Shown: positions 13,969 to 59,051 of the stretch, piece after piece
How positions within the stretch are numbered: the stretch's first letter is position 1
How the letters are laid out: every line of letters begins with the position of its first letter
NCBI GenBank assembly: GCA_030041385.1
Contig: JASHNY010000123.1
Span: forward strand, 1-61,102
Length of the DNA stretch: 61,102 nucleotides
DNA from: Alphaproteobacteria bacterium
GTDB lineage: Bacteria > Pseudomonadota > Alphaproteobacteria > ATCC43930 > CGMCC-115725
Reading direction: 5' to 3'
Made by a program: the position numbers and the translations under genes
The notes under the pieces: generated by a model
Database searches by the model: none
What the model was told of the DNA's origin: nothing
What the model saw: the letters and a program-made list of their open reading frames with translations, nothing else

Positions 13969-14063
13969 CCCTCTCGCCGTGGCCGGGCTTGACCCGGCCA
14001 CCCACGTCTTCCCTTTTTTTTCGAGGCCCTTGGCCGGGCTTGACCCGGCCACCCACGTCTTTC
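13969..14063. repeat. Two direct copies of family A palindromic repeat
   Basis: Copies A1 (13981-14011) and A2 (14032-14063) share the hairpin GGCCGGG-CTTGA-CCCGGCC followed by ACCCACGTCTTC. A T8 run lies between them at 14014-14021. A2 ends five bases before the GIY-YIG start codon. An inverted third copy begins at that gene's stop codon. Confidence 0.9.
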
Positions 14064-14068
14064 GCGCG

Positions 14069-14353
14069 ATGAGTGCCTGGGTCTACATCATGACCAATCG
14101 GCGGAACGGCATCCTGTATGTCGGTTCGACCGTCCATTTAGCACGCCGCGCCTGGGAGCACCGCGAGGACGTTGCTGATGGCTTTACAAAGAAGTATGGC
14201 CTTAAGCGCCTCGTCTACGCCGAGGAGCATTCGACACTCCTTGGGGCAAGACAGCGGGAAATGAATATCAAGCACTGGCCAAGGAAGTGGAAAGTTCAGC
14301 TCATTCACCGCGACAACCCATTCTGGGAAGACCTCTACGATGAGCTGATCTGA
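14069..14353 (+). CDS. Single-domain GIY-YIG nuclease
   Basis: This is a 94-residue protein made of just a GIY-YIG endonuclease domain. The signature is VYI at residues 5-7 and YVG at 17-19, followed by R27, H31 and a C-terminal segment (NPFWEDLYDELI) typical of the small YhbQ-like group. Its codon use is less GC-biased than its neighbours (TTA, ACA, ACT, CTT and CCA occur), which suggests recent arrival. No Shine-Dalgarno sequence is visible. Inverted family A repeats end five bases before the ATG and begin at the stop codon. It is either a repeat-associated selfish gene or a housekeeping-like nuclease of unknown role. Confidence 0.88.
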   Translation: MSAWVYIMTNRRNGILYVGSTVHLARRAWEHREDVADGFTKKYGLKRLVYAEEHSTLLGARQREMNIKHWPRKWKVQLIHRDNPFWEDLYDELI

Positions 14354-14382
14354 AGACGTGGGTGGCCGGGTCGAGCCCGGCC
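14352..14382. repeat. Inverted copy of family A palindromic repeat (A3)
   Basis: The reverse complement of this 31-base unit matches A1 at 30 of 31 positions (GGCCGGG-CTCGA-CCCGGCC then ACCCACGTCTTC). The TGA stop of the GIY-YIG gene occupies 14351-14353, so the repeat begins inside the stop codon. Confidence 0.9.
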
Positions 14383-14405
14383 AGGGCGAATAGAAAAGAT
14401 CGAAT

Positions 14406-24076: not shown

Positions 24077-24155
24077 GGCCGGGCTTGTCCCGGCCATCCA
24101 CGTCTTCCGTTCTGGCGGCAACCTATAAAGACGTGGGCCCCCGGGACAAGCCGGG
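24077..24155. repeat. Inverted pair of family A repeats without a gene between them
   Basis: GGCCGGGCTTGTCCCGGCC followed by ATCCACGTCTTC (24077-24107) faces an inverted copy (AGACGTGGGCC, then CCCGGGACAAGCCGGGG) at 24129-24155. Only about 20 bases separate them. The geometry is that of the repeats around the GIY-YIG gene, but with no open reading frame inside. Confidence 0.8.
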
Positions 24156-25953: not shown

Positions 25954-25974
25954 CGGCTTCTCCCCGACGTAATT

Positions 25975-26036
25975 GTCACCCCGGCGAAAGCCGGGGTCCC
26001 TATCGAGCATGGGTTCCGGCTGTCGCCGGAATGACG
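25975..26036. repeat. Family E palindromic repeat
   Basis: GTCACCCCGGCGAAAGCCGG, then a spacer, then GGTTCCGGCTGTCGCCGGAA and TGAC. It ends about 20 bases before the 3' end of the HpaB-like gene. Confidence 0.75.
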
Positions 26037-58985: not shown

Positions 58986-59051
58986 GGCCGGGCTTGACCC
59001 GGCCACCTCGCAAGCGTTTCGAGATCCCCGGGTCAAGCCCGGGGATGACGA
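58986..59051. repeat. Inverted pair of family A-type palindromes between trpB and trpA
   Basis: GGCCGGGCTTGACCCGGCC at 58986-59004 and an inverted companion, CCCCGGGTCAAGCCCGGGG, at about 59027-59045, followed by ATGACG. They could attenuate or stabilise the trpB-trpA transcript. Confidence 0.75.

Follow-up and report, generated by a model that had tools for sequence, protein, structure and literature searches.

Which enzyme, if any, spreads the CGTC REPs? These elements, a class that includes Neisseria dRS3 and Rickettsia RPE-4/RPE-6, rank with the most abundant repeats in the genomes of Alphaproteobacteria and other groups. A 2013 study stated that they "lack a dedicated transposase" (Di Nocera et al., 2013; PMC3733652), and the question of where they come from has stood ever since. 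The question is raised by a locus in a 61,102-nt contig of an alphaproteobacterial genome (JASHNY010000123.1; the whole stretch is hereafter called the window), where a small GIY-YIG nuclease gene stands between inverted copies of a palindromic repeat, family A. The first-pass annotation, made from sequence alone, saw here a possible minimal mobile unit and proposed that the nuclease plays for family A the part that RAYT transposases play for their REPs. The proposal is supported: CGTC REPs likely (probability about 0.65) have their cognate enzyme in the small GIY-YIG nuclease, which would do the work of a RAYT with an unrelated fold. That the protein cleaves and mobilises REPs is still an inference from its fold and from the RAYT analogy, without assay data.

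The window gene, its repeats and its protein

The enclosure of the gene by inverted family A repeats, as first annotated, holds. On the left, two copies lie in direct orientation, each composed of a 19-nt hairpin and a CCACGTCTT extension; the inner one ends at 14063, the number given beside the ATG in the first-pass annotation; the start codon itself lies at 14069, after the claimed gap of 5 nt. The right copy begins within the TGA stop codon (14351-14353), again as claimed. The right arm is 95% complementary to the outer left copy over 38 nt and 94% complementary to the inner one over 34 nt, and the inverted-repeat score of the 250-nt gene flanks, 34, compares with a maximum of 18 in shuffles (n = 1000) and a best value of 23 among other 285-nt intervals of the window (n = 1174). 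The gene was also said to be less GC-rich than its neighbours, and it is: 54.7% GC versus 67-70%, and 69.5% GC3 versus 88-92% (0.885-0.923), in five neighbouring genes. An Rfam search gave no match.

Table 1. Features of the window locus and related repeats in the window
Feature	Position	Strand	Remarks
Outer left REP copy, family A	13979..14010	+	GTGGCCGGGCTTGACCCGGCCACCCACGTCTT; hairpin -19.8 kcal/mol
Inner left REP copy, family A	14031..14063	+	97% identity to outer left copy
GIY-YIG nuclease gene	14069..14353	+	94 aa, single-domain, C-terminal NPxWxDLY motif
Right REP copy, family A, inverted	14352..14389	-	38-nt arm, 95% complementary to 13974-14011
Gene-less REP pair, family A, tails-inward	24077..24155		REPIN-like
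Lone CGTC-type REP, family other than A	25974..26000	+	TGTCACCCCGGCGAAAGCCGGGGTCCC
Gene-less REP heterodimer	58986..59051		Two stems; CGTC tag on left copy (CGTCACGGCCGGG...)

The family A repeat folds into a hairpin with an ACCCACG tail and meets the CGTC REP design (8-9 bp stem, 4-5 nt loop, CCA-type tail); the REPs of the window genome match the published layout, CGTCAT, stem-loop, ATCCA (Di Nocera et al., 2013; PMC3733652). The CGTC tag is missing from all three copies at the window gene. It is found elsewhere, at 58986, in other copies of the same genome (L007, L024, L027) and in congeners or relatives (L037, L221). Family A copies away from the gene can read CGTCATGGCCGGG...CCGGCCATC, but the tag has been lost from the three beside it. 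Both gene-less pairs listed by the first-pass annotation are real. The first is arranged tails-inward, like the pair around the gene, and is possibly a non-autonomous relative of the window unit; the second joins two stems.

One point needs correcting: family A is not confined to the window locus. A genome-wide search of the 4.39-Mb draft recovered 21 copies of the 19-nt core at no more than one mismatch and 17 copies of the 26-nt form at no more than two. The same draft carries three small GIY-YIG genes. The two paralogues of the window protein are 44-50% identical to it and also lie between inverted palindromes, the families of which (GTCATCCCGGCG...CCGGGACCCAT and GTTCCGGG...CCCGGAATGACG) differ from family A and from each other.

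The sole Pfam match of the window protein is PF01541 (E 2.3e-11); the HUH/Y1 tyrosine transposase domain (PF01797) was not found in it by the Pfam scan. Tyr6, Tyr17, Gly19, Arg27, His31 and Glu64 are invariant in an alignment of 37 relatives and, because these active-site residues are unchanged, the enzyme is probably active, a judgement that rests on conservation without activity data. The AlphaFold2 model is a single domain (pLDDT 94.4), for which Foldseek returns the UPF0213 structure 1zg2 as the best match and Slx1 (6seh) as the next. The Slx1 family cuts branched DNA. The protein meets the criteria of the GIY-YIG superfamily (the GIY...YIG strands, the catalytic Arg and Glu, the fold) and fails those of UPF0213, having an NPxWxDLY region, present at the C-terminus as NPFWEDLYD, and flanking REPs.

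Nuclease genes and their REP families across genomes

Small NPxWxDLY GIY-YIG genes between matched inverted CGTC REPs occur in many phyla; the pattern is seen in Proteobacteria, Elusimicrobia, Nitrospirota, Chloroflexota, CPR, Bacteroidota and Cyanobacteria. The layout is that of a gene with inverted REPs on its two sides, one or two CGTC-class REPs per side, at a median distance of 31 nt from the start and 14.5 nt from the stop; where the orientation is clear, the CCA tail mostly points toward the gene. Tails-inward dimers of the same families, without a gene, are dispersed in the genome. An inverted pair scoring at least 24 flanks 44 of 77 GIY-YIG genes, versus 2 of 645 other genes at the same loci (Fisher 1e-46) and 1 of 1303 random intervals. 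These 77 loci had been chosen by similarity to the query, and the comparison was hence repeated on evenly drawn alphaproteobacterial genomes, where, at a score of at least 20, the pair was found at 21 of 39 GIY-YIG loci and at none of 163 control genes. For the scan of the collection, closer relatives were used, the broader alignment being too diverse. A strict CGTC-REP scan places a REP on both flanks of 52/122 GIY-YIG genes and 2/749 controls; by the same scan, the REP density is 3.67/kb in GIY-YIG flanks versus 0.116/kb elsewhere, a difference of about 30-fold. The association of gene and repeats is thus shown.

The first-pass annotation held that it would be refuted if GIY-YIG homologues generally lacked flanking repeats. 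This is false for the NPxWxDLY type and true for UPF0213-type genes, which are without NPxWxDLY and are not REP-flanked (0/9). About 40% of the GIY-YIG loci in both locus sets have no clear matched pair, and no matched REPs were found at the GIY-YIG genes of Rhizobium K1/93, Sinorhizobium C101 and Photobacterium. Named records with the pattern include N. gonorrhoeae (where the gene lies among dRS3 repeats), S. meliloti, Novosphingobium aromaticivorans pNL2 and Azospirillum lipoferum, as well as Rhizobium, Shinella and Sphingobium, and in Spirosoma (Bacteroidota) and Planktothrix (Cyanobacteria) the genes are flanked by repeat types of their own. Two PLSDB entries filed as plasmids, 2.2 and 3.7 Mb long, are probably mislabelled chromosomes (L266, N. 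gonorrhoeae NZ_CP119142.1; L267, S. meliloti CP090106.1).

Every GIY-YIG gene has a REP family of its own around it. For 13 genomes that hold several such genes, the left repeat scores a median of 21.5 against the right repeat of the same gene and 11.0 against that of a paralogue (p = 3e-8); because the comparison is made within genomes, neither host composition nor one dominant REP family can explain the match. Over 100 loci, protein similarity and REP similarity correlate (rho 0.41 versus a permutation maximum of 0.155); shared host ancestry inflates this second test and leaves the within-genome test unaffected. Genome G022 holds 44 REP copies from families whose sequences are mostly the same as those flanking two of the GIY-YIG genes there, and its congener G013, which has no such genes, holds one copy of those families. 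G043 has a single NPxWxDLY GIY-YIG gene and 25 copies of the REP motif, almost every one belonging to the family around that gene. In G123 alone, NPxWxDLY GIY-YIG genes number about ten, several with differing REP families.

Repeats equally common with and without the nuclease would likewise have refuted the proposal. They are not equally common: in 95 evenly drawn genomes, the narrow REP motif is found in 16 of 33 genomes with the gene and in 5 of 62 without it (p = 1.3e-5). The exceptions are REP-bearing genomes that lack a small NPxWxDLY GIY-YIG, namely G008, G108 (78 copies of a REP pattern), G013 (22) and G018 (11), in which the only GIY-YIG proteins are UvrC- or UPF0213-type or weak fragments; a suspected GIY-YIG remnant in the REP-rich G108 proved spurious. 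G008, a 99% complete genome, has 66 family A hits, largely heterodimers of two near-identical stems (GGCC.. / GCCC..), and neither a small GIY-YIG gene nor a Y1 transposase was found in it. Its uniform REP copies suggest recent spread, and this is the main fact that the nuclease reading leaves unexplained. RAYT-REP systems also leave orphan REPs, as in E. coli strains (PMC3733652).

Occupied and vacant sites

The GIY-YIG gene and its REPs are present or absent as one block. In Azospirillum lipoferum 4B AZO_p3 (L269:2860-3478), a unit with a REP dimer on either side of the GIY-YIG gene interrupts the suf operon between sufB and sufC. These two genes adjoin each other, without a REP, in A. oryzae, A. 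ramasamyi and A. sp. B510 (about 95% identical), and the sufB-sufC matches of A. brasilense, A. argentinense and A. thermophilum are also of the shorter kind; by parsimony over these sites, the unit was gained in A. lipoferum. G126, a congener of G043, has none of the unit in the corresponding spacer and no REP there, and another vacant site without a REP is found in Shinella. In the congeners of the window genome, gene order has changed and the genes beside the window locus are separated, so that no clean empty site could be identified there. Vacant sites, for which the first-pass annotation had proposed to look in related strains, were found in Azospirillum, Sphingobium, G126 and Shinella.

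At the fnrL-RR site of Sphingobium plasmids, the unit is present in seven and the site is empty in others. In the plasmids TomTYG64 (L283) and TomTYG74 (L285), the unit is replaced by a single palindrome, CGTCACCCCGGGTCAAGCCCGGGGTGACG or a variant, which carries CGTC at both ends and consists of the outer halves of the left and right REPs, joined together. This doubly tagged palindrome is possibly a scar of excision or deletion at the hairpin loops, an insertion target being the alternative. Further scars of this kind were essentially not found in 1.5 Mb of loci (one borderline hit, L145), so the excision footprint rests on the one Sphingobium locus. No target-site duplication was seen; the spacers have diverged. 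In G123 and G127, two species, a GIY-YIG gene occupies the identical place, and movement must therefore be rare.

Explanations and known systems

That the nuclease mobilises REPs is only inferred. In the proposed mechanism, an Slx1-like GIY-YIG nuclease would recognise the hairpin of its cognate REP, in single-stranded or cruciform DNA, and cut it at the loop or at the base of the stem; this would release or copy the REP-bounded segment, which repair would then join at a new place. Under this scheme the gene unit would be autonomous, and REPs without a gene, as dimers or monomers, non-autonomous. A bolder reading, which could as easily prove wrong as right, sees in the REP-associated GIY-YIG nucleases a new class of DNA mobility enzymes, whose work is to recognise hairpin-ended CGTC REPs, excise them and spread them. 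REP mobilisation would then have been invented twice, independently, and this second system would be found across many phyla, with the doubly tagged palindrome as its excision footprint.

One alternative is homing: a free-standing homing-type GIY-YIG endonuclease would cut REPs, insert itself by repair and parasitise them without spreading them. GIY-YIG is a classic homing-endonuclease domain (PMC1564403), and the single palindrome at the gene-less Sphingobium sites looks as if the gene had entered its loop. Homing is nonetheless unlikely. That palindrome is tagged at both ends, unlike an ordinary REP, and resembles a deletion scar; the gene-less Azospirillum, G126 and Shinella sites have no REP, so the REPs came or went with the gene; flank sequences vary yet match left to right; and REP copy number follows the gene, as G022 and G013 illustrate. 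We also consider it improbable that the nuclease merely resolves REP hairpins or cruciforms for the host, with the flanking REPs serving as operator, terminator or target of autoregulation and no mobility involved. Such a role would suit the Slx1-like fold and the cutting of branched DNA, the REPs within about 30 nt of start and stop, which could control the mRNA, and the stable position in G123 and G127; against it stand the patchy presence of the gene, its low GC, the roughly ten paralogues in G123, the mirror-oriented REPs on both sides, the insertion into the suf operon and the presence or absence of the unit as a block.

Mobilisation in trans, in which the REPs are moved by Y1/RAYT or another transposase, with the GIY-YIG gene as a passenger trapped between two REPs, could account for REP-rich genomes without the gene; it is very unlikely, as the same small gene would have been caught in many phyla, each time with its own REP family, and CGTC REPs are reported not to be associated with transposase genes (PMC3733652). 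A search of eight REP-bearing genomes for Y1 transposases turned up three genes, confined to two of the genomes and none of them REP-flanked; RAYT was rejected on this search as the general REP mover. Chance, by which any small intergenic gene would fall among the REPs of a REP-rich genome, has in its favour only that REPs are common in some of these genomes, and is all but excluded by the control genes (2/645 and 0/163), the random intervals (1/1303) and the UPF0213-type genes (0/9).

The preferred reading, a cognate nuclease of CGTC REPs, has its closest precedent in the RAYT/TnpA-REP systems (REPtrons). There, too, inverted palindromic REPs enclose a nuclease gene and recur at other places in the genome, each REP family has one enzyme, dimers without a gene are dispersed, and few gene copies go with many repeats. 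By analogy, the GIY-YIG unit would work like a REPtron, yet it is not a RAYT: RAYT is an HUH/Y1 tyrosine transposase, whereas this defining domain was looked for and not found in the single-domain GIY-YIG protein, and RAYT REPs carry a GTAG tag, whereas here the tag is CGTC at most loci and is absent from the copies at the window gene. The repeats at most GIY-YIG genes are the CGTC REPs of Di Nocera et al. (2013), and the genes of N. gonorrhoeae, S. meliloti, N. aromaticivorans and A. lipoferum lie among them; that paper makes no mention of an association with GIY-YIG (PMC3733652), and the family A copies at the window gene differ in having lost the tag. UPF0213 and the prokaryotic Slx1-like single-domain GIY-YIG proteins (1zg2, 1ywl; PMC1564403) resemble the window protein in fold and size and are its closest solved structures, but their genes have neither the NPxWxDLY motif nor flanking REPs. 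Homing endonucleases of the I-TevI type share the catalytic domain and selfish behaviour; the window-type protein, by contrast, has no DNA-binding extension, and its gene is enclosed by inverted palindromes rather than by an intron. Insertion sequences and MITEs also combine a gene between inverted repeats with gene-less derivatives, but here the ends are hairpins instead of simple terminal inverted repeats and there is no transposase fold.

No prior report linking GIY-YIG to REP, REPIN, RAYT, dRS3 or CGTC repeats was found in the open literature; subscription journals and preprints were outside the search. If the reading is correct, the small GIY-YIG enzyme is the missing partner that spreads a large class of bacterial repeats, REP-type elements have evolved around two unrelated nucleases, and a function is at hand for many genes annotated merely as 'GIY-YIG nuclease family protein'. 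A cognate nuclease would also make the origin of CGTC REPs directly testable.

On a Planktothrix agardhii plasmid (L276), the small GIY-YIG gene is part of a defence island, with a type IIL restriction enzyme (MmeI) on one side and DISARM drmA on the other.
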